Positions 6,731 to 62,785 of a stretch of DNA of 64,000 bases are shown here, piece by piece. Origin of the DNA: Escallonia rubra. Lineage: Eukaryota > Streptophyta > Magnoliopsida > Escalloniales > Escalloniaceae. Positions within the stretch are counted from its first letter, which is position 1. Each line of letters starts with the position of its first letter. The notes beneath the pieces are model-generated. The model ran no database searches. It saw only the letters and a program-made list of their open reading frames with translations, and had not been told where the DNA came from. The DNA lies in the NCBI GenBank assembly GCA_033065855.1, contig JAVXUO010000670.1, forward strand, positions 26,111 to 90,110, read 5' to 3'. A program made the position numbers and the translations under genes.

Positions 6731-6732
6731 GT

Positions 6733-6748
6733 CTGTTTTCTTGTAGTG
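6733..6748. repeat. CACTA 3' terminal inverted repeat
   Basis: CTGTTTTCTTGTAGTG; its complement begins CACTACAAGAAAACAG, the canonical CACTA terminus. Confidence 0.9.
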
Positions 6749-14864: not shown

Positions 14865-14877
14865 TTTGTGTTTATAG

Positions 14878-22889: not shown

Positions 22890-22892
<3 letters not shown>

Positions 22893-23632
22893 GAGAGCGC
22901 TAGTAAACTGGGTTAAGTTGCTAGCGCGATCTGGCCGTCCACGTGCGATCTATGGACGGCCCAAATCTTTTTTTTGCGTTTTTTTAAGTCTGTCTGCCAC
23001 ATTATGTAGCGGACGGTATTTTTGACAAAAATACCATCTTTTCCATCCGCTATATTATGTAGCGGACAGAGGCAGTACTTTTTTCTGACTCTTTCTCTCT
23101 CCTTTGTCTGATTAATTTTCTGACATGTTTGATGTCCGCTACATTATGTAGCGGACGATTTTTTGACAAAAATACCCTCTTTTCCATCCGCTATATCATG
23201 TAGCGGACATAGGCAGTACGAGATATTCTGACCTTCTTTTCTCTTTCTCTCTCCTTTTGTCATCATTTTTCTGTCACCTTTCTGACTTTAGTCTCTTTCT
23301 CTGGCCTTTCTCTCCAATTTTCTAAGTTGTTTCTCTCTCCTTTTGTCATCATTTTTCTGTCACCTTTTGACTTTACTCTCTTTCCTTTCCGGACATGTGA
23401 TCCTAGCTCAGAGAAACTGGCTTTCTCTATTTTGATGGAACCATATATTACTACTAAGAATTTCTCAGATTTCACCATAAAATAAGAATAAGAGCTTGCT
23501 GGATGAGAGCAGAGCAGACAGATGAATTGAAGCTTTATTCCATTAAGGTGGTCTCCCTGTTAAAGAAGAAAGAACTGGAGAAGTAGTCATTTTGGGAGTC
23601 TCAGGGAAAAGAAATTCTCTCCAATTTTCTAA

Positions 23633-23680
<48 letters not shown>

Positions 23681-25132
23681 CTCGTAATATAAACTATGGA
23701 ATCAAATCTCCTTTCTATCGTAAAATTTCTAATAGTTTATATTAGAAAATTATGTGATAAAGATAACCCTCAAGTTTTGTAATCTGGGTTATCTATATAA
23801 GTTCAAGATTTGATTCCATACGGCTGTTGGGTTTGTGGAGAGGGAAATGAAACACATGATCTGAAGGTTGTTATTAATGGAACTGAAGTTGTTTGATGCC
23901 AAGTTGGTGTTTTTCTCCAAAAAATAAGTAATACAGTTGTCCGCTACATTATGTAGCGGACAAGAGTAACGGAAATATTAATCGAACACAGCCTATTCCA
24001 AGGTTTAGACTTTTGCGTTTACTAGTTCAAGATTCAGACTATTTATGTCTATGCACACTTCCTGAAACCCATCTCAATCTTCCTCTTCAACTCCAAGGAC
24101 GGAAAATTGGATGAGTCATCTTCCCAAGAAGAACCTCCATATATCTGCTCGATCGGCACAAATTTTTCATACCCGTCTTTTTGTTTTAGCTATGGAAAAC
24201 TACATCTCTTGCACTCTTTCAGCATCAGCAGGCAATCACTCGAGAGCAGTGAACTGGTAAAGGAGCTCAAGCTATTGATCTTGAGCCGCTTGGAAGTCGG
24301 CCTTAGGAATCACCGCCATGTGCCTTCCCATTGCGCATTCCGCATCAATTGGACAAAAATGAGAGAAAAAAACACAGAGAAAGCACAAACATCGGTGACT
24401 CCAAACATGGATTGACACCATTGACTCTCTTCCTCGCCGGTTAACATGGAATCCCTGTCGCCGAGATCCCCGCCGGAGTCCTTCCTGTTGGAATATTTTG
24501 GCCAGAAGGTTGACCTGACACACCGGATACGGGAAGTGCTGTCCAACTACCCCGAGGGAACCACCGTCTTGAAGGAGCTCATCCAGAACGCCAACGACGC
24601 CGGCGCCACCACGGTTTGGTTTGTGCCTCGATCGCCACTCGCACGCTCACAAGGGAGAGAGAGAAGATGATAGATGAGGGGGAAAGATGACTGTGCCCTC
24701 GATCGCCGGACACGGGAGGTGCTGTCCAACTACCTCGAGGGAACCACCGTCTTGAAGTACTCATCCAGAAGAGAAAAGATGAGAGATGAGGGGGAAAGTG
24801 AAAATAAAAGTTGGTTGTCTCTTTTCCAGAGTTGACAACACGGATGTCTCTTTTCGAGAAAGTAAAATAGTCTGCTACATAATGTAGCGGACATATGTAA
24901 TTGGGATTGAGGGGTATATTTTTCAAAAATACAGTCCGCTACATAATGTGGCGGACAAATGTAATTGGGATTGAGGGGTATATTTGTCAAAAATACCGTC
25001 CGCTACATAATGTGGCGGACAGACTTAAAAAAAATGCAAAAAAAAGTTCTGGGCCGTCCACATATCGCACGTGGACGGCCAGATCGCGCTAGCAACTTAA
25101 CCCAGTTTGCTAGCGCTCTCAACGGATCAGCT

Positions 25133-25135
<3 letters not shown>
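22890..25135. mobile_element. Non-autonomous MULE 1, carrying a sacsin/NOV-like gene fragment
   Basis: Inverted termini of about 140-150 bases: left 22890-23029, right 24984-25135. Both contain gctagcgcgatctggccgtc and the dyad GTCCGC...GCGGAC with TAC/GTA inner arms. The right end finishes ...ggatcagctccc and is flanked by (TA)n. The left end starts at ttgagagcgc and lacks about 12 terminal bases (ggagctgatccg) present on the right, so it may no longer be mobile. Further dyads occur at about 23045, 23140, 23190 and 23940. A 69-base tandem duplication lies at 24885-25020. Interior pieces between 23060 and 24420, with CT-rich runs, are not identified. Confidence 0.85.
24446..24660 (+). pseudogene. 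Captured fragment of a sacsin/NOV-like gene (first-exon ATPase region)
   Basis: The ATG at 24446 opens MESLSPRSPPESFLLEYFGQ and continues KVDLTHRIREVLSNYPEG, TTVLKELIQNANDAGATTV. This is the N-terminal histidine-kinase-like ATPase motif of plant sacsin-like proteins, where the family reads KELIQNADDAGA. After GATTV the frame is shifted by one base: the family-like CLDRHSH is readable in the next frame near 24626. About 60 codons survive. A shorter second copy (24700-24770, from 'cgccggacacgggaggtgct' to 'cttgaagtactcatccagaa') lies just downstream with the same purine-rich filler, so the captured piece was duplicated inside the element. The parent gene is not in the window. Confidence 0.75.
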
Positions 25136-25191: not shown

Positions 25192-27253
25192 GGGAGCTGA
25201 TCCCTTGACAGCGCTTGCAAAATAGGATATCTTGCCAGCGCGATCTGGCCGTCCATCCCGAAGGGATGGACGGCCCAGATCACTTTTTTTTGCGGCGCTG
25301 TCAGTCGTCCGCTACATAGTGTAGCAGACGGACTTTTTTACCTTTTTGCCCCTCCGACCCGTCCGCTATACTATATCGCGGACGGTCCAAATATTTTTTT
25401 TACTTTTTTTTAAGTTCGTCCGCTACATAATGTAGCGGACGATTTTTTGACAAAAATATCCTCATGTTCCATCCGCTACATTATGTAGCGGAGGAGTAGG
25501 CAGGCATTATTTTTTTGTTCTGTCCTTTCTCTAATTGTTCTTCTGACATCTCTCTCTCGTTTCTCTCAATGTCCTTTCTCTTTCTCTGTCCTTCCTCAAC
25601 CACAGCAACAGGATGAAGAAGAAGTGGAAGGTTCAATTTCTCGTTTAAAACCTTGACAGCCCTCTTGCTCTTCTTCCCCCCATGGCAGCAGTTGTTTATT
25701 CAGTCTGCTTTAATCGATATGTATTGCAAGTGTGGGGATATGGGTTCGGGGAGGAAGGTTTTCTATGGCTCGATGGAAAGGAATGCTATTTCTTGGACTG
25801 CTCTGATGTCGGGTTATGTCTCAAATGGGAGGCTTGAACAGGCTTTAAGATCGTCCGAGCAGCTCCTCCTCCTCCTCTCCTTTTTCTCCGCCAAAGCTGA
25901 TTTGTCACAACAAGAAGATGTCACCATTTAGCAAAACCCGAAACAATCGGACATGAAACCGTTACAAGTAGAGATATCGAAGAATCAAGCCCGGTTCATA
26001 GCTTACCGTTTATCGTATAATCCGAATGAAACTCATCTGCACCACTTTTTATATTCAACCATTTCCCCACGACCACTTTCGGCCATGACTGCAAAAAGTA
26101 TACAGTTTCAGCTTTCTCAGTCCCAAAAACAGAGTCCCTTTTAAGGAACCCCGCGTGTGTTTGTGTGTGAGAGAGAGAGAGACTGAGAGAGAGAAAGAGA
26201 GAGAGGTAGCATACCTTGGAGTGTTTTATACGCACCGTCTTCATTGCTGTGATTTACGGATCAAAATGGTGCAACTGAAGCTGAAAGAAGAGAGAGCCAG
26301 TTTCTGTTAGAGAGAGAGGGGTATGGAGCCAATGGGGATGTGTAGAAAGATTTATGTGAGAAATGATTGGATTTGAATATGGAAGTAAATGCAAGAGCGA
26401 ACAAAATGGGTGTTTAATCAAATACGTGAAACTGGGTTTCAATTTAATATGCAGGGTTTCTAATTGTTTAAGCATGGTGGGAAGGGTCTTAAATTAAGTT
26501 TGTAAAAGAAAAAATCTTCAACCATAGGGATTTAAAAAGACCCAAGTTGCAGGGGAAATGGAGACAGCTTCTGAGGAACGATCGTAGACGGAAAGGAAAC
26601 ACCATAAAAATGAAAGAACACAAATTTGTTGGTATTCATGTACTTAAACAAACTTACAATATTACCAGAGAGAGAGAGAGAGAGAGAGAGAGGGAAAGAA
26701 AGGCAGGCCAGACAGTTACTTTTGCTTGACGATAACATGGAGCAATAAGAAAGCTTGGAAATGGGCTTTACAGAGAGGAGAACAGAGTGTGTGAGGGAGA
26801 AATGAACAAAGGGAGAAGAAGAGCCACTGCCGTGAGGCAGTAGCACTGTTACTTGAATGTCTTTTCTTCGAGCCTGAACGCGAAGTCTCCAATGTCGGCG
26901 CATAATTTTAACGAGAGAAAGGACAGAACAAAAAAATAATGCATGCCTACTCCTCCGCTACATAATGTAGCGGATGGAACATGAGGATATTTTTGTCAAA
27001 AAATCGTCTGCTACATTATGTAGCGGACGAACTTAAAAAAAAAAGTAAAAAAAATATTTGGACCGTCCGCGATATAGTATAGCGGACGGGTCAGAGGGGC
27101 AAAAAGGTAAAAAAGTCCGTCCGCTACACTATGTAGCGGACGACTGACAGCGCCGCAAAAAAAAATGATCTGGGCCGTCCATCCCTTCGGGATGGACGGC
27201 CAGATCGCGCTGGCAAGATATCCTATTTTGCCAGCGCTGTCAAGGGATCAGCT

Positions 27254-27256
<3 letters not shown>
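25192..27256. mobile_element. Non-autonomous MULE 2, carrying a PPR gene fragment
   Basis: Long TIRs, 25192-25532 and 26914-27256 (about 340 bases each), match with only a few substitutions by eye. Both start gggagctgatcccttgacag, contain the hairpin ccatcccgaagggatgg, and carry four to five GTCCGC...GCGGAC dyads. The element lies between two TA tracts, so its 9-bp target duplication is hidden in TA. The interior (25533-26913) holds a PPR fragment and several unrelated-looking stretches with (GA)n runs at about 26165-26200 and 26668-26695; these look like pieces of captured untranslated sequence, not identified. No transposase is present. Confidence 0.9.
25690..25860 (+). pseudogene. Captured pentatricopeptide-repeat (PPR) gene fragment
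   Basis: Reads LFIQSALIDMYCKCGDMGSG, RKVFYGSMERNAISWTALMS, GYVSNGRLEQALRS. This is one and a half PPR motifs of the PLS type (SALIDMYCKCGD and RNAISWTALMSGY are diagnostic). Upstream and downstream codons do not continue the PPR family: after LRS the sequence turns into a Leu/Ser run. It is therefore a fragment of about 57 codons, typical of Pack-MULE capture. It resembles a chloroplast-type PPR of the At1g71460 group from memory, which needs a search. Confidence 0.75.
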
Positions 27257-28954: not shown

Positions 28955-29035
28955 TAATAGAGCAGTTACTCTGGATCTCCATTGCCTTCAGTTTCCTAAA
29001 CTTTTACACCCCCGGAACGGAAAGGGAAAAAATAT

Positions 29036-32000
29036 ATGGAGGTGGAGAGAGTCCAGGCCCTCGCCCAATACGGAAACCTCCACGAGCTGCCGGAAAAATT
29101 CATCCGTCCAGCCCACGAGAGGCCGGAGAATACCAGGGCGATCGAGGGTGTCACGGTGCCGGTGATCTCGTTGTTGCTACCCCACGACAATCTCGTCGAC
29201 GAGATATCGAAAGCATGCAGTGAATGGGGATTTTTCCTCATCACAGATCACAGCATTTCGGCGGCGTTGATCCAAGGTGTACAGGGGGTTGGAAAGGAGT
29301 TCTTCGAGCTCCCTCAGGGGGAAAAAGAAAGGTATGCAAATGATCCTTCAACTGGGAAGTTTGAAGGGTATGGAACAAAGATGACCAAAAACGCTGAAGC
29401 AAAGGTGGAATGGATTGATTACTACTTTCATGTTATTTCACCGGCCTCCAAGGTCAACTATGAGATATGGCCCAACACCCCTCCTTCCTACAGGTATCCC
29501 TCTGTGTGTGTGTGTGTGTGTGCCCGCGCGCCGGAGTGTGTGTGAGCTTTAACTCGCTCTTCAAAATTTGATTTATCACCAGAATAGAATGAAAATATAA
29601 ATGTTATTGGACTGTTAACCTAATGTTTGCTGCCAAAAGCATATAACACAGTTTTATTTTGCCAATATTTTGATGGCGCTGGAGGTGGATTTTAGGCTTT
29701 TCTTTATACAACCTTTCTATTTTTAGCTGTCTCAAGATAGCTATCCACTCTAAAAAATCAGCACCCATTAATGTTAGTTTTTCAAATATACATCTATTTT
29801 GTTATGCATTAATTACTGGTATATACACAAAGTTATCATAACTGTTACTGTTGATCTGGAACCATAACTTCAAAAGATGACCTGCAAAACTGAAAAGAGT
29901 GACCTCCTGGTGGGAGTTTGGCGGGAGAACCCTCCAATGATTAAGTTAGAGAACACCTACATGATAGAACTTAAAAAAAACATGAAATATGGTGTTCATG
30001 CGTAAATGGTCGCCTAAGTACTTGGGGGAGACACCTACGTATAGGCATAGGTAGAGTAGGAGTGACAGATCGGCCTTGGGGATGATCCTTGGGGATCATG
30101 TTAGAGTTCTTTCAATACAGTAACTTTTAATGTCAAAGTTGACTCAATTTTACGGGTTAATTTTACGCTACACCCTGTACTTAGGGGTCAGCTGCACCCA
30201 GGACCCCAGGGTTTTAAAATTAGCACCCAACACCAAATATTTAAAAAACTTGACTTTCATCACCAAATAACGGTCAAAATGACCTTTGACCAGATGCCCG
30301 TTAAAATTTTAAGGGCAAAATGGTATGTTAAGCCATGGAATCCACCTGCCATCCTAGTCACCAACTATCCACACCAATATCCTCCACGTCATTTTTCCTC
30401 AATAACCATAATTATCTTCTCTTCTCTCTCTCTCTCCCCCCCTTCTCCCTTCCTCCCCTCGGTCATCAATTAACCCATTTTCCCAGTTTATCACCATAGC
30501 CAACCACTGTATCCCGTCACCACCTACCACCGCAAACCACCACCAATCTCTGCCCTTCCACCTTACCCCCTACCATAACCATCCACCATCTCCCCTCTTC
30601 CCACCACTGCCACCCACTACAAATCGGCCCACCGAAGACTTTATAGGAGTGGAATTTGGGCACCGACGGAGAGACTCAGCAGTTGAGTGGCGGCATATCT
30701 TGGATCGTCGATCTGGTAGCGACAAGGCAGTGTCGAGGTGGTTGACCGGTGAAGAGAAGAAAAGAGACCCAGTGGCTGGTTGATTAGCAGATGACCGGTG
30801 GTCCACGGATCTGGCGACGGAGGAAGTAAAGGGTTGGTGGTTGGATTGTAAGAAACTTCAACCACACAAAGTTCATCTCTTGTCGTCACAATCATCACCA
30901 CAATAACATCATCTGATCCTCCAAACGGGTTGTTTGTAAAAGAAATTGGGGGCAAAGATTTTGAAAGTGAAGCTTTAAATCAATGGCTGCTCCGGCGGCA
31001 TAGCGACAGATCTGGTGGTTGCAAAATCTGGCAGCGGAGTCGACAGCACAGTGGCATGACAGCACAACACCGTCCTTGGTGGTCGATTGGCTATTGGTGC
31101 CCCCATTACCGGTTGCAGTTGGTGCCCCTCGCCGACGACTGGCTGTTAGTGCTGTTGCCCTATTTGTTTTCTCTTCTGCTTCATTTCTTTTTCTGCTGTT
31201 AGAGAGAAATGATGACGTGGAGAGCCCAATTGGGCCATGTGTAGGTGACTTGGATGACATGTATGCTTTAATGGGCAATCAGACCATTTTACCCTTAAAA
31301 ATTTAACGGACATCTGGTCAAAGGTCATTTTGACCGTCATTTGGTGATGGAAGTCAAGTTTTTTGAATATTTGGTGTTGGGTGCCAATTTTAAAATCCTG
31401 GGGTGTTGGGTGCAACTGACCCCTAAGTACAGGGTGTAGCGTAAAATTAACCCCAATTTTACAGAGAACACAAGATGTCATCCATTATTAGGAGTTTATT
31501 TTTGGTTCTATCAATAACAAACATCATTAATAGGAGCAACAATAGAATATAATTATGCAAAAGCAACAGTCGTGTAATGCAGTCAAATCATTCTCGATAA
31601 AGTGTGTGTCAAGTCAAAGGAGAAATTATTTAAAGGCAGGACGAGTAACTTTTTTCATGTTCCTAGACCGACTTCACCCCTCGTAGTTACTCTTTTTTCT
31701 GACCAAATTGGCGGTTGGGTTCCCATTTGTTCATAACCTATTCGGACCGCACCCCAGGGCCCGCTAAGGGACCTCTATTGCACGACACGTCACCCGCTTG
31801 TCAGTCAAAATTGCTCAACATCGTTAGTCGGTCAAAGCGCTCCGTGCCTCAAGCATCAGGACGTCGATCAAACTCAAAGTGCAGATTCCCCCCGAGGGGT
31901 CGGCCACCCCCTTAAGAAAGGGGTCGGCCACCCTCTTGAGAAGGGGGTCGGCCACACCCTTGAGAAGGGGTCGGCCAAACCCCTGAGAAAGGGGTCGACC

Positions 32001-36050: not shown

Positions 36051-36052
<2 letters not shown>

Positions 36053-36270
36053 GAGCCGATCCGTTGCCCGCGCTAGCAACTTAACCCAAATTGCTAGCGC
36101 GATCTGATCGTCCACGATCGAGAATGGACTGCCAGATCGCGCGCCACGCCCATTATTTTTTTCACCCGTCCGCTACATAATATAGCGGACGACGAAAAAC
36201 CGTCCACTACATAATGTAGCGGACGGCCAAACAGCGCTAGCAACTTGCTTGCGCTATCAACGGATCAGCT

Positions 36271-36273
<3 letters not shown>
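36051..36273. mobile_element. 223-bp MITE of the GTCCGC-dyad MULE family
   Basis: Ends are gggagccgatccgttg and caacggatcagctccc. The interior has 'gctagcgcgatctg', a hairpin on 'gtccacgatcga' and two dyads (about 36166-36190 and 36202-36222). It is closest to the right end of MULE 1. It has no coding capacity and is flanked on both sides by TA repeats. Confidence 0.88.

Positions 36274-36328
<55 letters not shown>
36274..36328. repeat. (TA)n tract between the MITE and the 9.4-kb MULE
   Basis: TA repeat with one TGTATA interruption; it is the only sequence between the two elements. Confidence 0.95.
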
Positions 36329-36585
36329 GGGAGCTGATCCCTTGACAGCGTAGGCAAAATAGGATATCTTGCCAGCGCGATCTGGCCGTCCATCCCTTCG
36401 GGATGGACGGTCCAGATCACTTTTTTTTGCGGCGCTGTCAGTCGTCCGCTACACTGTGTAGCGGACGACTCTTTTTACCATCTTGCCCTCGCTCACCCGT
36501 CCGCTAGACTGTCTAGCGGACGACATTCTTGGGCCCACATCCTCCGACAAAAAGTAGTCCGCTACACTGTCCAGCGGACGACTGT
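36329..36585 (+). repeat. Left TIR of the 9.4-kb MULE
   Basis: Contains the hairpin ccatcccttcgggatgg and three dyads at about 36443, 36498 and 36557. A fourth lies just inside at about 36654. Successive dyads have inner arms TACAC/GTGTA and TAGAC/GTCTA, both perfectly symmetric. Confidence 0.92.
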
Positions 36586-37262
36586 CACAACTGCACAATT
36601 CTGACACAATTATGACTTGTCTGACACAAGTGTGACTTGATGTCGGCAATTCTGTCCGCTACACAGTCTAGCGGACAGTATTGCCCATCCCCACTACTCA
36701 ATTTTCTTTCAGCACAATTTTCTTCTACTCAATTCTTTCAGCACAATTTTCTTCTCCTTCGGACTCGCTTCCATTTTCAGCTGCCTTCAAGCCTACTCAA
36801 TTTTCTTTGAGCACAATTTTCTTCTCCTTCGGACTCGCTTCCATTTTCAGCTGCCTTCAAGCTTCGAGTAACACTTGCTTCAAGCTTCGCTCAAGCAAGG
36901 TAAGTTTGCTTCAAGTTTTCTTGATGTTCTAGAAATTTGTCACTGTATTCATCAATTTGTGATTTTATACTCTAGATTTTTTGTGATGTTCTAGACATGA
37001 TGTTCATCATAAAGGTATAATTTGTTAACTTTATATTTAATTCATTATAGTTTAATTCGATTTTTTGGCATGATGAATTCGTCTATTTATCTTACTAATT
37101 TAAATTTGTTATGTTCAATAAATTAATAATTGTTAATTTGGAGACACTTTTGAGATTATGCATACCGTATGTTTGTCATCCTAATTTTTAGGTAATATTT
37201 TCAGTTAGAAATGCCATTTGATTGTTAAGCGTAGTCTATTTCTACACAGCTCTTGTTTCACA
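36586..37262 (+). promoter_or_regulatory. Leader and probable 5'-UTR intron of the MULE transposase
   Basis: A 66-70-base segment ('gcacaattttcttctccttc ... cagctgccttcaagc') is tandemly duplicated at about 36725-36863. A good splice donor (caag|gtaagttt at 36900) and acceptor (attttcag ending 37204) bracket an AT-rich stretch, suggesting an intron in the leader. The first ATG of the long frame is 37263. Confidence 0.55.
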
Positions 37263-39560
37263 ATGTCTGATTTCGTGTCGAGCTCCAACGTCCCCGTAGA
37301 TGCTAGTGATCCGTATCTAGGACGAACATTTGCTACGTTGGAAGAAGCTGAAGAATGTTTTCGAGCGTATTCATTGAGGGTTGGTTTTGGCATTAGAATA
37401 AAGACTTCAAGAACGAGCACCATAACGAGAAAGATATGCTCTCGCTTATACGAGTGCCATAGGAGCAGAAACCCAGTGCAAAATGAGACACGCGTAGGCA
37501 ATGATGACAGTGATGACGAAATAGGATATCCGCGTAGAAGACGGGACTGCTTTGAGCGCACAAATTGCCAGGTCAAGATGTTCGTAAGCTACAAACCCAA
37601 ACAAGACCATTGGCTTATTACCAGCCTGGAACTGGCACACAATCACCCGTTAGTAACCCCTTCTAAGGTGAGTGAGATGCATCAACACAAGAAGATGGGT
37701 AAGGTCGCAAGGAGCCTGATTCAGACAATGAGCAATGCGCGACTAGGACCTACCGACATGATTAATGTTCTTGCTGAACAGGCTGGGGGAATTCAAAATT
37801 TGACCTTTAACACGACAGACGTTCGTAACGCGGTCCGAACCCATAGACGAGCCGCGTATGACCTCAATGATGCTCAAGCCACAATGAGCCTATTGAAACG
37901 GATGCAGATGGAGGACCCGCAGTTGACCTTCGATTATAAACTTGACGACGAGCATCGAGTTAGCACAATTTTTTGGGTCGACGGTCGTTCGAGGCTTGCT
38001 TATAAGCATTTTGGGGATGTCGTGACGTTCGACACCACATACCGTACCAACAAGTACTCGATGCCGTTCGCCCCTTTCACGGGGGTCAATCATCATTATC
38101 ACTCCATCCTGTTCGGGTTCGCCTTGTTAAGGGACGAGACCGAGAGTTCTTTTGAATGGTTGTTTAGGACGTGGCTGGAAGCAATGAACTTCAAAGCACC
38201 CAAAGTGATCATCACCGATCAAGATTTGGCAATGAAGAAGGCTATTGCGACCGTCTTCCCAGACACTCGGCACAACTTGTGCACCTGGCACATAAGCAAC
38301 AAATACCCGGAACGGCTGCATCACGTGTACGCAAAGTATGAAGACTTTAAACAGGATTTTGACAAGTGCGTCCTCAAGTCGTTAACGATTGAGGAATTCG
38401 AGGAGAGGTGGGAAAAGCTTGTTCGGGATTACTCATTGCAAGACAACGAGTGGCTCCAGCACTTGTACGAGCGCAAAGAGCAATGGATTGGCGTTTACAC
38501 GAGGAGGTATTTTTCAGCGGGCATGAAAACGACGGGCAGGAGTGAATCCATGAATGCCACGTTCGATAGTTATGTGGGTACAGCTACCAATTTGAAGACT
38601 TTCGTTGCATCCGCACAAAAAGCGGTAGCTTCGTTGTTCGTAAAAGAAAGGGCTGCCGACTTTGCAACAACGTACAAACAAAGGAGAACGTTGCTCGAGA
38701 CCCCGCTGGAGATGAACGGTGCCAAAGTCTATACGAAGGAGATCTTCTTGCTATACCAAGTAGAGCTGCGAAAATCCGGACGATACAGTATAAACAAGGT
38801 GGCAGAAATGTCTACGCGTGAGTACAAGGTTTATTCGCTCGTGAATGACCTCGTCCCTGAGAAGCTGCGCAGAATGTATACGGTGAGCCACGACACATTG
38901 ACGGACTCGGTGACATGTGTTTGCAAGAAGTTTGAGTTCCATGGCATCCTGTGTAGACACGTTCTGCGGTTTTTCACCCAGAAGAATATCAGGACAATCC
39001 CCGATAAATACGTCTTGCCACGGTGGACAAAAGGTGCAAACAGGTTGCACGGTACCATTTCCTTTCCGGAGCACCCGTATACTGACTTTGAAGAATCAGA
39101 GACGTTGCGGTATAATCATCTGGTGACGATGTTCACCCGTTTGTCCGTAAAGGGTGCTGCTACAATGGTCGGTTATAAACATCTCCTCGAGGTAGCTCAG
39201 CAACAAGAGCCCATCGTCGACCAGTTGGAAGCAGCTTCAGTCACCAATGCGATTGACACCGAGCCTACGACGGGGGTATCAGAAGATGACGAGCCGGAGG
39301 AGGAAGACGACAATGATATCCGTTTGTTGGATCCAATTATATCGCAAACGAAAGGCCGCAAGAGATCTACGCGGATGAAAAGCTCTATTGAAACGGCAAC
39401 TCAACCTAAAAAGCTGCGAAGGTGTGCATTGTGCAACAAAATGACCGACCACGACAAGCGGAACCATTACAAGGCACTGGGGATAAGTTCAGGGGGTTTG
39501 CAAGACGGGGAAGAAGGTGACGCCGAAGATGAGGACGAACAAGCTGCAGTGGACCTTTAA
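37263..39560 (+). CDS. MULE transposase, FAR1/FHY3 type (765 aa)
   Basis: Start chosen at MSDFVSSSNV; the frame is open further upstream but without ATG. Domains: a FAR1-type DNA-binding region (about 25-140) with FATLEEAEECFRAYSLRVGF, Cys at ECHRSR and TNCQVKM, and His at ELAHNHPL (WRKY-GCM1-like CCHH finger). The MULE DDE domain (about 225-430) has DVVTFDTTYRTNKYSMPFAP (first Asp), KVIITDQDLAMKKAI (second Asp), CTWH (the C-x2-H motif) and a candidate catalytic Glu in GRSESMNATFD. The SWIM zinc finger (about 555-590) is CVCKKFEFHGILCRH. The acidic C-terminus ends near a CALC...H...H cluster. A domesticated FAR1-related host gene would look similar, but this gene lies within matched TIRs of a young MULE, so it is most likely the active transposase of this element and of the dyad-bearing derivatives nearby. 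Confidence 0.92.
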   Translation: MSDFVSSSNVPVDASDPYLGRTFATLEEAEECFRAYSLRVGFGIRIKTSRTSTITRKICSRLYECHRSRNPVQNETRVGNDDSDDEIGYPRRRRDCFERTNCQVKMFVSYKPKQDHWLITSLELAHNHPLVTPSKVSEMHQHKKMGKVARSLIQTMSNARLGPTDMINVLAEQAGGIQNLTFNTTDVRNAVRTHRRAAYDLNDAQATMSLLKRMQMEDPQLTFDYKLDDEHRVSTIFWVDGRSRLAYKHFGDVVTFDTTYRTNKYSMPFAPFTGVNHHYHSILFGFALLRDETESSFEWLFRTWLEAMNFKAPKVIITDQDLAMKKAIATVFPDTRHNLCTWHISNKYPERLHHVYAKYEDFKQDFDKCVLKSLTIEEFEERWEKLVRDYSLQDNEWLQHLYERKEQWIGVYTRRYFSAGMKTTGRSESMNATFDSYVGTATNLKTFVASAQKAVASLFVKERAADFATTYKQRRTLLETPLEMNGAKVYTKEIFLLYQVELRKSGRYSINKVAEMSTREYKVYSLVNDLVPEKLRRMYTVSHDTLTDSVTCVCKKFEFHGILCRHVLRFFTQKNIRTIPDKYVLPRWTKGANRLHGTISFPEHPYTDFEESETLRYNHLVTMFTRLSVKGAATMVGYKHLLEVAQQQEPIVDQLEAASVTNAIDTEPTTGVSEDDEPEEEDDNDIRLLDPIISQTKGRKRSTRMKSSIETATQPKKLRRCALCNKMTDHDKRNHYKALGISSGGLQDGEEGDAEDEDEQAAVDL

Positions 39561-39710
39561 TTTTTTGTACAACTTTATGACATTTGTAATAATTTTCGGA
39601 GGGATAATTTTTCGACCGGGTACTGGAATTTTTTTAAAATGGACCTATGAGAGGCCATCGAATCAAATCTAAAGTCTTTATTTCAAGTTTTTTTTTTTTT
39701 TTTGTAAGTC
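39561..39710 (+). other. 3' flank of transposase gene
   Basis: AT-rich, with a T-run at about 39690-39705. No separate feature is seen. Confidence 0.4.
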
Positions 39711-39950
39711 TCGTCCGCTATACAATGTAGCGGACGTCATCGACTTTTGGTCTTTTACGTCCGCTATATTGTATAGCGGAGAGGTGGCATCGAAGTAAAA
39801 AACTTTTGGTCTTTTTACGTCCGCTATACAATGTAGCGGACGTCAGAGCAGGCAAACTTTTGGTCTTCTTTAATGTCCGCGATACAATGTAGCGGACGTA
39901 AAACTTTTGGTCTTTTACGTCCGCTATACAATGTAGCGGATAAGTCTATA
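39711..39950. repeat. First internal dyad cluster (five copies)
   Basis: Five copies of GTCCGC(T/G)ATACAATGTAG-type dyads (about 39713, 39759, 39818, 39873, 39919) are separated by 'cttttggtcttttac' linkers, between the transposase stop and the B3 gene. Confidence 0.9.
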
Positions 39951-40118
39951 TGATATATATTAATCATATCGGGCAATCGGCTGTTATCAGTCCAATCTGG
40001 AGGGCACTCTCTCTGTCTGGAACATCTAGCCCAGGCCACTACTCCATCTCCGGCGACCCACATCTCCGGTGACCCACAACTCCGGCGATAAACCGTCCCC
40101 CCCTCAACGCCGACCTCG

Positions 40119-40582
40119 ATGGCTTCTGGATCGGAGACCACCTACGATTTTATTGGCAACTTGCACCTGGCAGGCAAACACTTTTTCAAAGTCATGATGC
40201 CGGGGTTTGAGAATGAACTTGTATGCCATCCCTCTATCTCTGTATTTTCGTGTGTTAAATCTTTTGGTTAAAAACTAACCTATTTTTTGTGTATTGTGTT
40301 TGTTAGGACATACCGGAAGCCTTCACCAATCAATTTACAACAATTCATGACAGTGCAAGATTATATAGCCGCAAGGGGGCATGGCAGGTTGAAATCAAGC
40401 TGAAGCTCGGCCGACCCCAAAAAAAGCAATTCGCAGAGGGTTGGAACGTCTTCGTGCGCCAGCATGGCCTCGAACTCGGGGACTTTGTAGTGTTTGAACA
40501 CCTTGGGTGGTGGGATTTTCAAGTTGTAATCTTTGATCGGAGCACTTGTGAAAAAATTTCTTTCCCCCAATGTGAACCCTAA
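40119..40582 (+). CDS. Small single-B3-domain protein encoded in the MULE (125 aa)
   Basis: Two exons, 40119-40220 and 40307-40582 (donor ctt|gtatgc, acceptor gttag|gac, phase 0), give MASGSETTYDFIGNLHLAGK...FPQCEP. Recognisable B3 (REM-like) landmarks in order: HFFKVMMPGFENEL, DIPEAFTNQF, a positively charged strand KGAWQVEIKLKLGRPQKKQ, FAEGWNVFVRQHGLELGDFV, VFEHLGWWDFQVVIFDRSTC. The whole protein is one B3 fold with no other domain. B3 domains bind DNA in plants as transcription or chromatin regulators. Dyad arrays stand on both sides of the gene (39711-39950 and 40718-41640). I infer the protein may recognise the element's own dyads, but target sequence cannot be read from the protein. It could also be a captured host REM gene. 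Confidence 0.8.
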
Positions 40583-40717
40583 TTTATTGTTAATAAAATA
40601 ATTTGTGTTCTTGTTGATTGTGTTTCGAAATTTTTCCTCGCTTAATTGTGTCGTTTGAGATTCCCTCGATATATTGAGATCGTTGATAGTGAATCGTAGG
40701 TTAATTGCAGAAACTGA

Positions 40718-41640
40718 TTTTACGTCCGCGATACAATGTAGCGGACGGCGCAGCAGAAACTCCACCCATCCACACTTAGAAAATTTTGGTCTTCATTTTA
40801 CGTCCGCGATACAATGTAGCGGACGGCGCAGCACACTTAGAAAAATTTGATAGTCATTTTACGTCCGCGAGAAGATGTAGCGGACGGCACAGCACACTTA
40901 GAGAAATTTGGTCTTCATTTTACGTCCGCGATACAATTTAGCGGACGGCGCAGCAGGAACTCCACCCCCACACTTAGAAAATTTTGGTCTTCATTTTACG
41001 TCCGCGATACAATGTAGCGGACGGCGCAGCAGAAACTCCACCCATCCACACTTAGAAAATTTTGGTCTTCATTTTACGTCCGCGATACAATGTAGCGGAC
41101 GGCGCAGCAGAAACTCCACCCCCACACTTAGAAAAATTTGGTCTTCATTTTACGTCCGCGATACAATGTAGCGGACGGCGCAGCAGAAACTCCACCCATC
41201 CACACTTAGAAAAAATTGGTCTTTATTTCACGTCCGCGATACCATGTAGCGGACGGCGCAGCAGAAACTCCCCCATCCACACTTAGAAAATTTTGGTCTT
41301 TATTTCACGTCCGCGATACCATGTAGCGGACGGCGCAGCAGAAACTCCACCCATCCACACTTAGAAAAATTTGGTCCTCATTTAACGTCCGCGATACAAT
41401 GTAGCGGACGGCGCAGCAGAAACTCCCCCATCCACACTTAGAAAATTTTGGTCTTTATTTTACGTCCGCGATACAATGTAGCGGACGGCGCAGCAGAAAC
41501 TCCACCCCCACACTTAGAGAAATTTGGTCTTCATTTTACGTCCGCGATACAATGTAGCGGACGGCGCAGCAGAAACTCCACCCATCAACACTTAGAAAAA
41601 TGAAATCTACCTACATTTGTCCGCTACATTGTATAGCGGA
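40718..41640. repeat. Tandem array of about 12 units of 60-78 bp, each carrying one dyad
   Basis: Each unit has cgtccgcgatacaatgtag then cggacggcgcagc, followed by 'agaaactccacccatcc' and 'acacttagaaaattttggtc'. Starts are near 40722, 40800, 40861, 40921, 40998, 41076, 41152, 41230, 41308, 41386, 41462 and 41538. A thirteenth, diverged dyad (tgtccgctacattgtatagc) is at about 41618. Two units are shortened to about 60 bases by loss of the 'aactccaccc' segment. The array separates the 3' ends of the convergent B3 and PMD-Ulp1 genes. Confidence 0.93.
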
Positions 41641-41806
41641 CGGCACAGCTGTGTATCCTAAACTTCACTACTTAGAAAATTTTGCACCATTTCGTTTTCC
41701 ACATTTCAATCATTCCCAATGAGGCCAAAAAACCAACAACGTTCATCAATCAATCAGTAATCGAATGGCGTACGGTTTATGTAAAAAATACTGTTATGAT
41801 ACAATT

Positions 41807-44800
41807 TCAACTGGGGTCCGCATGTTGGGGCGGATTCTCGGCATAAGCCGGATTTTCTATAAACCTAACCGCTCTAGGCCGGCCTTTCATAATTTGCCAA
41901 GCTATTCTATATCTATAGGCTTCAACTTCTGCTTGGCTCCAGACGGCCGCCTTGAGGCTCTCAGAGCGACAAATGAAATCCATTTACATGCAAAGGAAAA
42001 CGCCGCAGTCCGAAGTGTTACGTTGCTTGGGCCTCCTCTTCTTCAATCGCCTATTGAGATTTGGCCGCGCCGGTACGGGGACATTACGGACACGATTGAC
42101 CATTGCACACAAAATATTCTGCGAGAAACAGAAAATGGCGTAAGACACGAGTTAAAATTTATGGCAAGATAGAATCAGAGCATTATACAGCGATCGTAAT
42201 ATTACCAATGAGTCCAACTGGGCTCTGTACATGTGCAGCACAGGCATATGATGAGTATCGTCGTGGAGACTGTCGATCACCGATACGACTTTACTTGTTG
42301 GGGAGTAGCAAACCAAGTACCAGTGGCTTTGCCCTAGAAATGGGATTAGAAAGACATCGGCAACACTTGCGCTCACCGGACTATCCCTATTAAGATACGC
42401 TCGTAGGTTAACGGACGGTCTCCACTGGGCCAACTTTTTCTTCCCCCTATTTTCGACCCACTCCTGCCATTCAGACACTAGGATGCCATGAAAAAAGGCA
42501 TCGAACAAAAAAACGGCCGGATAGGTCGGCTGCTGCCGACACCTTTCCTTCAGAATCTCCACGTAGGTGGAGACGACACCGTTGTCTAACCAACTCCCCG
42601 GAGCCAGGGAGGCCAGTTCTCCCCACGAGCAACTGTAATCCATGCCCTCCGGATGATCCACACTATACAACGCTTGGTCATGCGGGTAGCCGCTAAAATA
42701 ACGCTCTCTGATTATCTGGCATTTATGCGGCTTTAGGGGCTTCAACGGATGCCCTTTGCGATATTGCCCTTGGGGGTCGACCGGGGGGTATTGCACTCCT
42801 TCGGGGGGGTCGACGGGGGGATATTGCACTCCTTCGGGGGGGTCGACGGGGGGGTATTGCCCGCCTTCGGCATTAGATGGTCCTGCCCACGTGACAATGG
42901 GCAGACTGATATTTCCGCAACCCCAGTCTTGCGTGACTTGACTCTGAGAGAGGGGTTGGGGTTCCGAATCCAATAGTAAAGAGAAGGAGGGCGCACTGTA
43001 ATCTTCCCACGGCGCTTGAGCCTGGCCCATGGTGCTTGGCGGTCCCCAATCACCACCCATCTCCGGTACAGAGGGAAAACCATATCCCTGGCTCACTCCC
43101 GAAGTCTGTCCCGAGGGATCGGTGCATCCCTCGGGAACAAACGGCCGCTGCCACCCCGGATAACCCATTCCCGGGTTTGGCTGTCCCGATGCTTGCCGCA
43201 AAAAATTCCCGCAGCCAAGCGCCAACGCTTCAGCCTGTTGGCGAAGCTCCTCGCCCATGGCATCCACCAAATCCTTCCGCTCGCTCAACTTCTGGAAGAA
43301 GGCGAACGAGGCATTAACCTACATCCAGAGAGATAATAAATAAGTAACTTCGTACACACTTAGAATGATCAAGTTCAATTAGAAGCACTGGTTGGGCAAC
43401 TTACCAGATTGTATGCCATGTGCTCATCGATCTGACCCCTAGGGTGGTACTTCTCCCCGCGTTCAAACCTTACTGGAGCTACTCTCCTCCGGGTGATGCG
43501 GTAGTACCACTCATTGTACTGTTCGATGCTGATGACGGGTTCAGGCTCCGACACAATGGCCACCAGCGTGTCCTGCCAGGAATTCCAGACCTCAATTTCA
43601 CGCGCGCACAACTCGTGCGCATTCGCCCTGCCAAACAGTCCGACACCCGGTGGGTTCCTGTTAAGCCTCATATCTGGCGCGCCGGCTGGCAACCCCTGCA
43701 GGCAGTCAAAATGGCGCATAGCGCGATCTGGCAGCTGCCACTCTGCGACCTCGAAGTGGATCAGGGGTGTGCGTTGCAACCCGGAGAGCGTGAAGACGAA
43801 CGACTCTCCCACCCGTCGCGCCAAACGTTTGTACGGTGCCCATCGCATCTGGCCAGGAGATAACGAGTCGAGCTCCCCCCGATAGTATGAAATGTTGTGA
43901 TGGGGATCGTCTCTCCTCTCGTAGTGGGTTTCCTTCCGGCTGTACTCCCAGGCGCACAACCGAGGCCACACATTATCTGTTCCGTCCCTACGCCTGGGTG
44001 CGCCGGTAGCAAGGTGTTCATAAGACCACACCTGAGAGCAAAGACATTAAAAAAAGTATCGTCAACATTTATTGTCCATTCAACAAAAAAAAAAACAACA
44101 AAGAGCACGTAATGAAGAATTGTATGATATACCTGCAATAGCGAGAGACATGCACATATCGCTTTGGAGTCGGGCCTCGTTGCCTTGTGCAATGCTCGGT
44201 ACAGGTATGCAAGAGTTGCTGCACCCCAGGCATAATCCCCAACCTCAGCCAGGTTACGCAAAAACGGTAAATATTTGACGCTGACCGTGTTCTTCGACGT
44301 CGTTGGGAATAATATTGCCCCCATCACCCACCAGAGGAAGGCTTGTGTGTACAGCACAAGGTCATGGCCCGTATAGTTTTCTGGCAAAACCCCGTAGGTA
44401 TCTACCAACCACTTCAACTTGATACCACCACTGCTAAATCCATCCTGGGGTATCGAAGTAAAGAAGTCCCTAGCGGTCCTCTTATTCGTTGCTTCGGACG
44501 GATGAGCTATTACCGGCCGCCCCGTCACCGGTAACCCTAAGATGAACCCTACATCTTCTAGGGTAATTGTCATCTCTCCGATAGGGAAGTGAAACGTATT
44601 CGTTTCACTTCTCCACCTTTCAACAAGGGCACCTATTAAGTGCCGGTCAAGTTGTTGAAAGATCTGCCCATGCGTGAAAATCCCAAACCCAATCCCACGC
44701 AGTAATCTTTTCTGGGTTCTGTTCAATTTCCAGGCGTTGAAATTATCGCTTACTTCTACCGTGTTGACAAGTGCTCTTTCCTACGAATTAATAAATATTA

Positions 44801-44970
44801 TTTAAGCAAAATAAACGATATACAACGTTCGCAACTGAAATACGTAAGCAAAATAAACGATATAAACGATAAAATAAGTATCTTACTCCACCATCCCATA
44901 TGAGCGTACTGATATGGGATGCTTGGTCGTATAATACGGACGAATCTTCTGGTCCAGGGTTGAAATCCAT
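41807..44970 (-). CDS. Plant mobile domain fused to Ulp1-type cysteine protease
   Basis: Five exons on the minus strand: 44970-44887, 44780-44133, 44031-43405, 43318-42206 and 42118-41807, all GT-AG and phase 0. Exon 1 reads MDFNPGPEDSSVLYDQ...LIWDGG, the usual start of PMD proteins. Exons 2-3 form the plant mobile domain (PF10536): FHFPIGEMTITLEDVGFILG, LPVTGRPV, LYRALHKATRPDSK. Exon 4 has a Pro/Gly-rich linker with three YPPVDPPEGVQ repeats, then a C48/Ulp1 protease domain: PGSWLDNGVV, SHWYLVCYS (His), SVIDSLHDD (Asp). Exon 5 supplies TSDCGVFLC (catalytic Cys codon 42005-42007). Two codons past LC an in-frame TAA (41984-41986) occurs, yet similarity continues (MDFICRSESLKAAVWSQAEV) to a TGA at 41807. 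The C-terminal 58 residues are therefore lost, giving 868 instead of 927 aa. PMD proteins act in silencing of transposons; Ulp1 proteases remove SUMO. The role here is inferred only. Confidence 0.88.
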
Positions 44971-45451
44971 TTTTTGCAACTGAAATAATGGAAAGAGGGC
45001 AAGGTTGGAAGCGTAAACATTCCCAAACATACAACGCTAGCATATTCAGCGCTAGCATGTGATTAGATAATACGCAATACACATATATAATATATATGTA
45101 TATACATTGACAAACGCTAGCATAGTGCCGATCTACTTGCCAACGCCGCAAGATGAACTCTAGATTATGAACAAAGAAAGGATTAGTTTGTGAACTTACG
45201 TGATTGATGAGACGATTAAAGGATTTCTTGCAAAGAAATTGCGCCGATCTACTCGCCAACGCCGCTGGTTTGATCGTGAGAAGAAGGAATAGTTTGATTG
45301 TGAGAAGAAGGAATGAATAGAAGTTTAGAAGGTGACGAATACTTGCCAACGTCCGCTACACTGTGTTGCGGACGCTGGGATAACGACAAAGTAACAGTCG
45401 TGCATCGACAGATGTGACAACTGTCAGGGGGAAGTGGCTGGTTTGACGGAA
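44971..45451. other. Upstream region of the PMD-Ulp1 gene
   Basis: Contains no further ORF I recognise. A dyad-like site (tccgctacactgtgttgcgg) is at about 45353. It presumably holds the promoter of the minus-strand gene. Confidence 0.45.
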
Positions 45452-45697
45452 ACAGTCGTCCGCTAGACAATGTAGCGGACTACTTTTTGTTGGCCCAAGA
45501 ATGTCGTCCGCTAAACAGTCTAGCGGACGGTGAGCGAGGGCAAGATGGTAAAAAGAGTCGTCCGCTACACAGTGTAGCGGACGACTGACAGCGCCGCAAA
45601 AAAAAGTGATCTGGACCGTCCATCCCGAAGGGATGGACGGCCAGATCGCGCTGGCAAGATATCCTATTTTGCCTACGCTGTCAAGGGATCAGCTCCC
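45452..45697 (-). repeat. Right TIR of the 9.4-kb MULE
   Basis: Inverted copy of the left TIR, ending ...gggatcagctccc at 45697. Dyads are at about 45458, 45506 and 45559; one has lost symmetry in a single arm base (CTAAACAGTCTAG). Confidence 0.92.
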
Positions 45698-45733
<36 letters not shown>

Positions 45734-54893: not shown

Positions 54894-57800
54894 TCAGGTG
54901 AATAAGTGCGGATACTTTGACCTAATCTCATCTTCACTCTCCCAGGTAGCTTCTTCAATATCATGGTATTGCCATTTGACCTTAACCAATGTAATGACCT
55001 TATTCCTCAATACCTAATCCCGACGATCCAAAATTTCCACCGGCTGCTCAACGTAAGACATATCTGCTTCTACGTGAACTGGCTGATCGTGCAACACATG
55101 TGATGGATCTGGCTGATATTTACGCAACATAGATACATGAAAGACATTGTGTACTCCAGACAATGAAGGCGGCAAAGCGACCCGATACACTAGATTACCA
55201 ACCCGTTCCAAAATCTCACAAGGCCCAACAAACTTCGGAGATAGCTTACCTTTCTTACCAAATCTCATGACTCCTTTCGTTGGAGAAATTTTAATAAAAA
55301 CAAAGTCTTCCACCGTAAATTCCAAACCGCGTTGATGAGTGTCGGCGTAGCTTTTTTGTCTACTCTGTGCTGTACGAATACGTTGTTGAATTACTTGTAT
55401 CTTATTAGTGGTTTCACGAATAATATCAGATTTGATAAGCTTACCTTCCCCAACCTCTGACCAACAAACTGGAGATCTATATTTTTTTCCATATAACGCC
55501 TCATAAGGAGCCATATCGATACTAGAATGGTAGCTGTTATTATAAGAGAATTCAATAAGTGGTAAATGTGAATCCCAACTACCTTTCAAGTCTATCACAC
55601 AAGCTCGTAACATATCCTCCAAGGTTTGTATAGTACGCTCACTCTGACCATCTGTCTGAGGGTGAAAGGCTGTACTCAAGGCTAACTGTGTACCCATAGC
55701 TTTCTGAAAAGCTTGCCAAAATCGAGAAGTAAAATGTGGATCCCTGTCGGAAACAATACTAACAGGAACTCCATGCAAACGAACTATCTCATCGATATAT
55801 AACTTAGCTAGTTTTTCCATGGAATATTTCATATTCAGAGTAAGGAAATGTGCAGACTTAGTAAGACGGTCTACTATTACCCAAATTGCATCATTTCCGT
55901 CTCGAGTCCGCGGTAAACCTGTCACAAAATCCATAGTTATGTGCTCCCATTTCCACTCAGGAATAGATAGAGGTTGTAAATAACCACCCGGCTTTTGATG
56001 TTCTACCTTTACCAGCTGACATGTTAGGCACTTGGAAACAAATTTGGCTATATCACCTTTCATACCATTCCACCAATAATGTGATTTCAAATCTCTGTAC
56101 ATTTTAGTGCCACCCGGATGAATACTGTACTTACTCTGATGCGCTTCTTTCAAAATCTCCTGTTTAACCTCGGCATCATTTGGTACACAAACACGATCTC
56201 TAAATCTCAATATATCTTCCGAAGATAATGAAAATTCAGGTTGCAACCCTTTCTCCACCTTCGTTCTAATTTTCTGCAACTCTGGGTCCTTTCCCTGAGC
56301 TTCCCGTATCAATTGCATTAATGCTGGCCAGACTTTAATATTAGCAAATAGAAATCCCGTCCTAGTGGCGCGCGGCCTCCAATCACACACATCAATTAAC
56401 ATATGCCATTCCTTAAGCATTAAACTAGCAATCATATTCTTTCGGCTTAAGGCATCAGCAACCACATTAGCGTTACCTAGGTGATATGAAATAGAACAAC
56501 TGTAATCGTTTAATAATTCCATCCATCTACGTTGTCTCATATTCAATTCCTTCTGTGAAAATAAATATTTCAAACTCTTATGATCGGTGTAGACCTCAAA
56601 TACTGCTCCATACAGATAATGTCTCCACTTATGTAAGGCAAAAACAATAGCTGCTAATTCTAGATCACGAGTAGGATAATTCTCTTCATACGACTTCAGT
56701 TTACGTGATGCATAAGCAATTACCTTACCTTTTTGCATAAGCACACACCCCAAACCTTTGTGAGATGCATCACTGTATATTACAAAATCATCATTCCCGT
56801 TAGGCAGAACCAAGATTTATAGGTGCACTGACCAATCTATGTTTCAACTCCTGAAAACTATTCTCACATTTATCATCCCAAATAAAAGTTACTTTCTTCT
56901 GAGTCAAACGGGATAATGGACCAGCAATTTTAGAAAATCCCTTAACAAATCTACGGTAATATCCGGCTAACCCCAAAAAACTACATACCTCCGATACTGT
57001 TGAAGGTGTTTTTCAACTTTGTATAGCCTCAATCTTAGCCGGATCCACTGATATTCCTGCACCTGATATTATATGACCCAGAAAAGCAACTTGTTCCAAC
57101 CAAAACATACACTTTTCAAATTTGGCATACAACTTTTTATCCCGTAAGGTTTGCAAGACAAGTCTGAGATGCTGAGCATGTTGTTGGGTATCCCGAGAAT
57201 AAACCAAAATATCATCGATAAAGACTACCACAAAACTATCCAAGTATGGTTTGAATATGCGATTCATCAAATCCATAAACGCTGCGGGTGCATTAGTAAC
57301 CCCAAATGGCATAACTAAAAATTCGTAATGACCATACCTAGTCCTGAAAGCAGTCTTAGGGACATCCTCTTCCCTCACCTTTAACTGATGATAACCTGAC
57401 CTCAAATCCAACTTGGAAAATATCTTAGCTCCTTGCAATTGATCAAACAAATCCTCGATATGGGGTAATGGATATTTATTCTTTATGGTTACCTGATTTA
57501 ACTGTCTGTAGTCGATACATAAACGTAAGGTACCATCCTTTTTCTTAACAAATAAGACAGGCGAACCCCAAGGTGAAGTACTTGGTCTAATAAAACCTTT
57601 ATCAAGTAAATCTTGTAATTGCACCTTTAACTCTTTCAACTCAGCAGGAGCCATTCTGTAGGGAGCTTTAGATATAGGTGCAGTGCCTGGAATAAGTTCA
57701 ATAACAAATTCTATCTCCCTATCAGGTGGTAGAGTAATCAAGTCCTGAGAAAATACATCCGAATATTCTTGAACAATAGGGATGTCCTCCAGCCTAGTCA

Positions 57801-58128
57801 CTGTCTTCGAACAGTCAATATCATACACAATATATCCCACACAACCCTTATCAAGTAACTTTTGAGCACGTAAGGCAGAAATAATAGGGACAACAGTTGG
57901 ACTTTTATCACCCATGTACATGAATACCGACTGATCAGGCAAAGTAAACGTAACAGTCTTGGCAAAACAGTCAACACTAGCATGATTGTGGGATAACCAA
58001 TCCATACCCAAAATAACATCCAACTCCCGCATAGGCAGTGCAATCAAATTAGCATGCAGTACATGGTTATTCATGTTAATCTCACAGGCTTTGTACACTC
58101 TATCTGTATATAAAGAATCACCCACAGG
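54894..58128 (-). pseudogene. Chromovirus pol: RT, RNase H, integrase, chromodomain; broken
   Basis: RT has [37 protein letters not shown], and [15 protein letters not shown] with the DD active site. RNase H has [18 protein letters not shown]. Integrase has [11 protein letters not shown]...CLTCQLVK (HHCC), then [32 protein letters not shown] and [11 protein letters not shown] (DDE). Near the C-terminus, [16 protein letters not shown] leads into [37 protein letters not shown] and KYPHLF, a chromodomain-type tail. Lesions are TGA at 57013 replacing the Trp of IQSWKTP, a frameshift near 56815 (SAPI / ILVLPNG), and TAG at 55014 inside DRRD-VLRN, just before the chromodomain. The final stop is at 54894. 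Confidence 0.9.
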
Positions 58129-58133
58129 GGTAC

Positions 58134-61100: not shown

Positions 61101-61320
61101 TTATTATGATACCTCGTTTGACAAAAAATGTCGCTAATAAGTACACCGCTACTAAAAGTTTAGTTGTCACTAAAAAGTATTTCACTGCAAAAATTTAATT
61201 CGTCGTTAAAATACACATCGACGTTAAATAATAAAATATATCGTCACTAAAGGTCCGATAGAGGATTAGTTGGGATTTTCATCATAATTTCAGTTTCAGA
61301 TTTTTTTTTGGGATGTTACA
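58134..61320. mobile_element. Solo LTR (3187 bp) inserted in the chromovirus with 5-bp target duplication
   Basis: Starts TGTAACAACCC, ends GGGATGTTACA, and is flanked by ggtac on both sides (58129-58133 and 61321-61325). Removing it and one ggtac restores the minus-strand reading frame across [17 protein letters not shown], so it interrupts the protease/RT linker. There is no internal coding region. Its TGTAACA...TGTTACA ends and length fit Tekay/Del-type LTRs. It shares blocks with the partial LTR at 6749-8904. CA-rich and CT-rich stretches lie at 59900-60420 and 60690-60900. Open frames in it (Thr/His or Leu-rich) are compositional. Confidence 0.9.
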
Positions 61321-61325
61321 GGTAC

Positions 61326-62688: not shown

Positions 62689-62785
62689 CTGAACAGGTGA
62701 AAAAATATGTTTAGGCCATACCGAATTTCAAATTAAAGAAACTAATCAATTCTGAAGATCTTAGCCTGGCTTCCAAGCAACTACA

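Follow-up and report, generated by a model that had tools for sequence, protein, structure and literature searches.

The literature consulted here names few element-encoded anti-silencing proteins (VANC, TnpA and MURA; TnpA as treated in PMC10398659). Here we describe a Mutator-like element (MULE) of Escallonia rubra that may encode another, located at positions 36329–45697 of a 64,000-nucleotide stretch of the genome (the window; GenBank assembly GCA_033065855.1, contig JAVXUO010000670.1, positions 26,111 to 90,110 of the forward strand), in whose numbering the coordinates below are given. The element carries genes for a FAR1-type transposase, a small B3 protein and a PMD-Ulp1 fusion, together with many copies of one dyad. 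We propose tentatively, at somewhat below an even chance, that the dyads are sites for an element-encoded protein, with B3 as the first candidate, that PMD-Ulp1 is a VANC/KIU-like factor, and that the element encodes its own anti-silencing.

VANDAL21 and VANDAL6 of Arabidopsis, with their protein VANC, are likewise MULEs with accessory genes; anti-silencing has been demonstrated for them, whereas the Escallonia MULE is known from sequence alone (PMC5735166, PMC10398659). In the VANDAL elements as described in these two reports, a short motif lies densely and in one orientation within non-coding tandem repeats of variable, growing and shrinking length, and the transposase is more conserved than the accessory protein, both of which hold for the Escallonia element. 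In the same descriptions, however, VANC carries DUF1985 and DUF287 where the Escallonia MULE has a B3, the motif YAGTATTAY is not a dyad, and the terminal inverted repeats (TIRs) are degenerate, whereas those of the Escallonia MULE are long.

Other features of the element also have precedents. An Ulp1-type gene antisense to the transposase, as here, is described for KAONASHI/KIU and ULP1-bearing MULEs of melon, rice and grapevine, and Ulp1 has been reported in Jittery-like MULEs too; compared with the elements in these accounts, the Escallonia Ulp1 is fused to a PMD and is accompanied by a B3 gene and dyads (PMC2528002, PMC13317346). MULE groups with a PMD, often antisense to the transposase as here, are on record (PMC6446971, PMC5418596); among host proteins, the PMD relatives MAIN and MAIL1 take part in silencing, and anti-silencing by a captured PMD has already been speculated on (PMC5418596). 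Within the element rows of PMC6446971, plant Jittery elements have one open reading frame (ORF) with FAR1 and without PMD, and no MULE row has a B3. Insertion into (TA)n microsatellites is shared with MuTAnT of Medicago, which has a Jittery-like transposase as here (PMC4486113), and with SaTar of guayule and rice, which stands in non-nested rows with small relatives, again as here (PMC5907723). AutoMuTAnT is described with a single transposase ORF, unlike the three-gene Escallonia MULE (PMC4486113). There is thus precedent for MULEs with PMD and antisense Ulp1, for TA-targeting and for anti-silencing of the VANC type. Among the open-licence papers listed in searches for B3, none reported such a gene in either a MULE or a CACTA element.

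Results

The dyad is 23 bp long, with the approximate consensus GTCCGCKAYAY-W-RTRTMGCGGAC (drawn by eye). At no more than one mismatch in its twelve arm positions, 26 copies were counted in the element: four on the 5′ side, five between the transposase and B3 genes (39713–39941), 13 in an array (40724–41641; period about 78 bp) that separates the B3 gene from the 3′ end of the PMD-Ulp1 gene, and four on the 3′ side. The three genes, counted with their introns, contain none of the 26. Dense motif arrays in non-coding DNA are a feature shared with VANDAL. When arm pairs were counted over the whole window at the same threshold, 42 were found at spacing 11 and only 0–2 at any of the remaining spacings between 5 and 19, an excess which argues that the dyads are not due to chance. 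Sixteen further dyads (18 when two mismatches are allowed) belong to three smaller relatives of the element within the window.

Across the sequences compared, the centre of the dyad occurs in 88 distinct forms. Its halves do not covary, as a stem would require, and the dyad has the look of a pair of half-sites, each read on its own; a hairpin or RNA structure was ruled out on the same ground. Among 57 unique array units anchored on the spacer, conservation was 0.99 in the arms and 0.89 in the spacer (p 9e-6). The same pattern extends to three diverged copies of the element (L048, L049 and L050), in which 12, 11 and 12 of the 12 arm positions of the array unit are kept, as against 36, 30 and 30 of 55 spacer positions. 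These patterns make the dyads look like protein-binding sites under selection.

The element itself is a MULE copy with long TIRs at 36329–36588 (forward) and 45438–45697 (reverse), in which 198/200 and 243/260 aligned columns are identical; read inward from 36329 and 45697, a repeat search gave 169 nt at 100% complementarity. The transposase gene (37263–39560, forward strand) is an open ORF of 765 aa with the MULE domain (PF10551, 3.9e-33) between an N-terminal FAR1 (4.1e-13) and a C-terminal SWIM (5.4e-5), as in Jittery/FAR1 MULEs. Its named matches are mostly FAR1-RELATED SEQUENCE 5-like, and no Escallonia-named protein stands among the 120 matches listed. The B3 gene follows on the same strand, its two exons (40119–40220 and 40307–40582) encoding 125 aa in which B3 (1e-10; 41.9 bits against a curated cut-off of 30.1) is the sole domain in the Pfam scan. 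The initial annotation of this locus had described matched TIRs of about 250 bp, an intact FAR1-type transposase, a 125-aa B3 protein gene and about 25 copies of one dyad, and all four descriptions hold, with the addition that the dyads also occur in the three smaller elements. It had overlooked these gene-less relatives and the microsatellite in which the element sits.

Both end sequences, GGGAGCTGATCCCTTGACAGCG, are present and seated in (TA)n, which covers 36274–36328 on the left flank and 45698–45732 on the right. TA repeats precede all 12 ends found by the end pattern; in L003 a few non-TA bases separate the end from (TA)n. Because of this seating, the 8–11 bp target site duplication of a MULE is masked and cannot be read.

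We searched the assembly (566 Mb) for further copies. The TIR search returned at least 41 full or near-full matches (40 of 2077 candidates scored). For at least 19 of these, a B3 match of like orientation lies 3–5 kb further inside, and at least 16 of 49 matches to PMD exon 2 have a convergent B3 match within 1.5–9 kb; both counts are lower bounds, and some of the remaining 22 and 33 may be without B3. All seven further full or near-full copies that we fetched carry the transposase, B3 and antisense PMD-Ulp1 genes in the same order and with dyads. Four of them are young (L039–L042) and three have diverged parts (B3 57–65% in L048; PMD-Ulp1 63–66% in L048–L050), at synonymous distances up to 0.2–0.5; three of the seven (L040, L048 and L050) are truncated pieces, and L049 is without part of the transposase. 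L050 is a chimera, with a young-type transposase and B3 joined to an old-type PMD-Ulp1 and downstream array. Dyads number 26 in the window copy, 24 in L039, 39 in L040 (a piece without the 3′ side) and 21 in L042, L041 being outside this count.

The element therefore belongs to a high-copy family of several subfamilies, with a FAR1-type transposase, (TA)n seating, three genes and many dyads. Since the gene set recurs in all seven copies and B3 is high-copy, chance insertion of B3 and PMD-Ulp1 was ruled out. The initial annotation had proposed a self-contained unit and suggested looking for copies with the same TIR and gene order, and all the long copies fetched support the unit; its further ideas, that B3 reads the dyads and that silencing is blocked, stay hypothetical, so the proposal is supported in part. 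It had also held that TIR relatives lacking the two genes would count against the proposal; such relatives do exist in the window, as described next, while all the longer copies fetched carry the genes.

The three smaller relatives are non-autonomous. E1 (22890–25135) has lost its left tip and holds dyads and a sacsin-type gene fragment; E2 (25192–27256) has a near-identical TIR and dyads close to each end, and it contains a fragment of a PPR gene but none of the three genes; and E3 (36051–36273; 223 bp) has two dyads and lies in the same (TA)n stretch as the main element. All three retain dyads and lack B3 and PMD-Ulp1, as expected of gene-less derivatives. Together with the main element they are lined up in two rows, without nesting, and (TA)n links the neighbours. 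E1 and E2 are Pack-MULE-like.

Each TIR of the main element contains three dyads and one further palindrome, GTCCA-N11-TGGAC (at 36388 and 45618). This palindrome is present once per end in E1, E2, L039 and L042 as well, and was not found in L041 or in L048–L050, of which L048 and L050 are cut pieces; it is a possible transposase site. Outside E. rubra, a transposase (P0122, 46% identical) and a PMD protein (P0004, 41%), each on a contig of 7311 bases, probably represent one related element in another plant.

The PMD-Ulp1 gene lies on the minus strand, antisense to the transposase, in five exons separated by GT/AG introns, all of phase 0. Exon 1 (44887–44970) has the same boundary in the annotated E. 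rubra protein P0002; exons 2 (44133–44780) and 3 (43405–44031) encode the PMD, exon 4 (42206–43318) the linker and the Ulp1 His and Asp, and exon 5 (41984–42118) the Ulp1 Gln and Cys, with an in-frame stop at its end. Pfam detected PMD (1.1e-73) and Peptidase_C48 (1.1e-9) in the one gene. The fusion had been annotated correctly, and the stop after the Cys in this copy is to be added to that description. The two best PMD matches are P0002 and P0003 of E. rubra, the former aligning to 58% of the query at 96% identity and agreeing at the exon 1–4 junctions. Like the Ulp1 of KIU/ULP MULEs, the gene is antisense and has the catalytic residues, though truncated in the window copy: His, Asp, Gln and Cys are retained in all eight copies, the window included, while the Gly that follows the Cys is altered in L041 and L048. 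Neither of the two VANC domains, DUF1985 and DUF287, was among the matches of the spliced PMD-Ulp1 up to E 10; DUF7745 fell below the cut-off, and one unspliced ORF gave DUF1985 at 0.15. A genome search gave at least 189 exon matches, with 51 of 6516 candidates scored. An AlphaFold2 model of the PMD, made on P0003 with 25 sequences, had a mean pLDDT of 46.7 and was not used for a fold search.

The genes differ in the ratio of nonsynonymous to synonymous substitution (dN/dS). For the window copy against L048, L049 and L050, dN/dS was 0.27, 0.34 and 0.23 in the transposase, 0.33, 0.31 and 0.28 in the PMD, 0.49, 0.48 and 0.52 in the linker plus Ulp1, and 0.88, 0.81 and 0.25 in B3 (the last at a dS of 0.027), and B3 is the fastest-changing gene between subfamilies. 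Bootstrap intervals were made for B3 alone, and that for the window and L048 is 0.54–1.53. Transposase and B3 are open in all five young copies, the window included. B3 has at least 150 genomic places (the best 150 of 2133 candidates) at 88–100% identity, 134 of the 150 listed being stop-free by hand count. A stop-free frame in both lines would have a probability of 0.02 without constraint; together with the bootstraps, this suggests that B3 is fast-evolving but probably not free of constraint. The sole protein match of B3 is P0001 of E. herrerae, and B3 resembles, weakly, the chains of VRN1 (E 0.009) and At1g16640 (E 0.028).

When the genome was searched with the L048-type B3, at least 150 further places were found (the best 150 of 2437 candidates), none of them in common with the first list when compared by eye. 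About 70 of those listed are at 69–73% identity, and two of these were fetched (L051 and L052). In L051, positions 762–5010 are bounded by the CACTA ends CACTACAAG...CTTGTAGTG and a TTC/TTC duplication, and the B3 gene inside shares its intron position with the MULE B3 and is 58% identical to window exon 2. Its dN/dS is 0.57 (0.34–0.91) against the window and 0.74 (0.42–1.50) against L048. Neither the MULE transposase nor PMD-Ulp1 has a match in this interval of L051, and GTCCGC dyads are absent from it; a different palindrome, TTAGCGACGG-n-CCGTCGCTAA, occupies its subterminal zones. L052 agrees with L051 in its B3 and 3′ zone (97% over 1070 bp), but no CACTA end, left or right, was found there, so that CACTA identity is proven for one of the two copies, L051.

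The window also contains a CACTA-type element at 1365–6748, with tnp2 (1365–2897) and DUF4216 ORFs, a 3′ end at 6748 and subterminal TTAGCGACGG/CCGTCGCTAA palindromes. Its 5′ end was not located and no B3 was found in it; its 3′ zone matches that of the L051 type at 82% over 312 bp. Because these palindromes also stand on a CACTA element without B3, the CACTA dyads are independent of B3. The B3 gene was probably taken up by a CACTA element and then multiplied there, although the direction of transfer is not proven. A likeness between the half-sites of the MULE and CACTA dyads (GTCCGCTA, GTCGCTA) was seen by eye only, and we did not build on it. TnpA binds CACTA subterminal repeats and, to our knowledge, contains no B3. 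Spm/En, which belongs to a superfamily other than the MULEs, offers a parallel in that TnpA is presented in PMC10398659 as an element protein tied to demethylation, and L051 joins a B3 with subterminal dyads.

Elsewhere in the window lie two closely similar copia-type pieces (13722–17754 and 20493–21722), an N-terminal piece (DIOX_N) of a non-haem dioxygenase-type gene (29000–29545), and, on the minus strand, ORFs of a retrotransposon type encoding an aspartyl protease and RVT_1 (55014–62727).

Discussion

In the mechanism that we propose, each dyad would consist of two independent half-sites for a DNA-binding protein that the element encodes and that binds as a dimer or in pairs; B3 is the likeliest candidate. 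Bound at the ends and along the intergenic arrays, B3 would act in cis to keep the element transcribable and its ends reachable, and it may also act on gene-less relatives that bear dyads, such as E1–E3. PMD-Ulp1 would work in trans, with host chromatin or SUMO conjugates as its target, and the two would together form a self-encoded counter to silencing, VANC-like in its working and built of other parts. Our preference for B3 as the reader has four grounds: it consists simply of a DNA-binding domain, is encoded between the dyad clusters, diverges fastest, and is most changed in one loop: changes are denser in its putative C-arm loop, which we take to be the part expected to contact DNA (8/11 as against 33/94 and 25/94; p 0.019 and 0.004), in a post hoc test with two comparisons. 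In both its orientation and its content, PMD-Ulp1 resembles the PMD and KIU/Ulp1 genes of other MULEs, and it could therefore be the VANC-like factor in place of B3.

CpG retention speaks for the proposal, with reservations. Dyad arms kept 31/40 and 39/42 of their CpGs in two comparisons, as against 42/94 and 55/124 in other non-coding DNA and 202/339 and 185/285 in coding DNA, which is also below the arms, but arm retention was possibly overcounted if array units were aligned to other units. Observed/expected CpG is 1.05 in the element and 0.94–1.04 in old copies, compared with 0.46 in the neighbouring copia pieces (13.7–21.7 kb) and 0.68 in gypsy, a comparison confounded by age and base make-up; the B3 gene, at 0.67, is like the rest of the window (0.66). 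Several further observations likewise weigh against the anti-silencing proposal. The window Ulp1 is cut by its stop 5 codons past the catalytic Cys, and PMD-Ulp1 is open in only one of the five young copies (L042). A B3 dN/dS near 1 could mean relaxed constraint, and the lack of stops, at 0.02, is only moderately improbable by chance. The chimeric L050, with its young-type B3 and old-type array, is evidence against a strict correspondence between the two, and the CACTA relative of B3 sits with different dyads, which also stand on a CACTA element without B3.

A serious rival is that the transposase, which has its own DNA-binding domain, could read the dyads. They would then be sites for its FAR1 zinc finger, or end and promoter parts for host proteins, with B3 and PMD-Ulp1 otherwise employed. 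Three dyads in each TIR would suit this explanation, as would their retention in the gene-less E1–E3, which depend on an outside transposase, and the conservation of the dyad arms alongside a transposase that is among the most conserved genes. However, 18 of the 26 dyads are internal, between genes, and the GTCCA-N11-TGGAC palindrome, one per end in several copies, occupies the more usual place of a transposase site, and we regard the transposase reading as unlikely. Quite unlikely, in our view, is ordinary autoregulation, in which B3 would activate or repress the element's own genes without any part in anti-silencing. The B3 gene is indeed flanked by dyads, five upstream and 13 downstream, and Pfam shows only a B3 domain in the 125-aa protein, but autoregulation leaves the dyads of the gene-less relatives unexplained, and the arrays exceed the apparent needs of promoters.

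That B3 and PMD-Ulp1 are passengers, host genes captured and amplified under weak constraint, is an explanation to which we give little credence. MULEs do capture genes, and E1 and E2 hold gene fragments; B3 has a dN/dS near 1 and occurs within a CACTA element, and PMD-Ulp1 is frequently broken. Yet both genes are in place in all seven further copies, three of them at the synonymous distances given above, PMD has a dN/dS of about 0.3, the Ulp1 catalytic residues are retained, and most of the B3 matches listed are stop-free. A bolder version of the anti-silencing proposal would make B3 a portable, sequence-specific anti-silencing or activation factor, independent of VANC and TnpA, co-diverging with its dyads and exchanged between MULE and CACTA elements, with PMD-Ulp1 as a separate arm in trans; this we consider doubtful.

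If B3 does read the dyads, a plant transcription-factor fold would have been recruited for anti-silencing. The family would then offer, with at least 150 B3 copies and several subfamilies in one genome, a test bed for the co-divergence of a protein and its sites. The link between PMD and a SUMO-protease-type domain provides another point that experiments can address. Two transposon superfamilies that both carry B3 would be evidence that elements can exchange factors of this kind.

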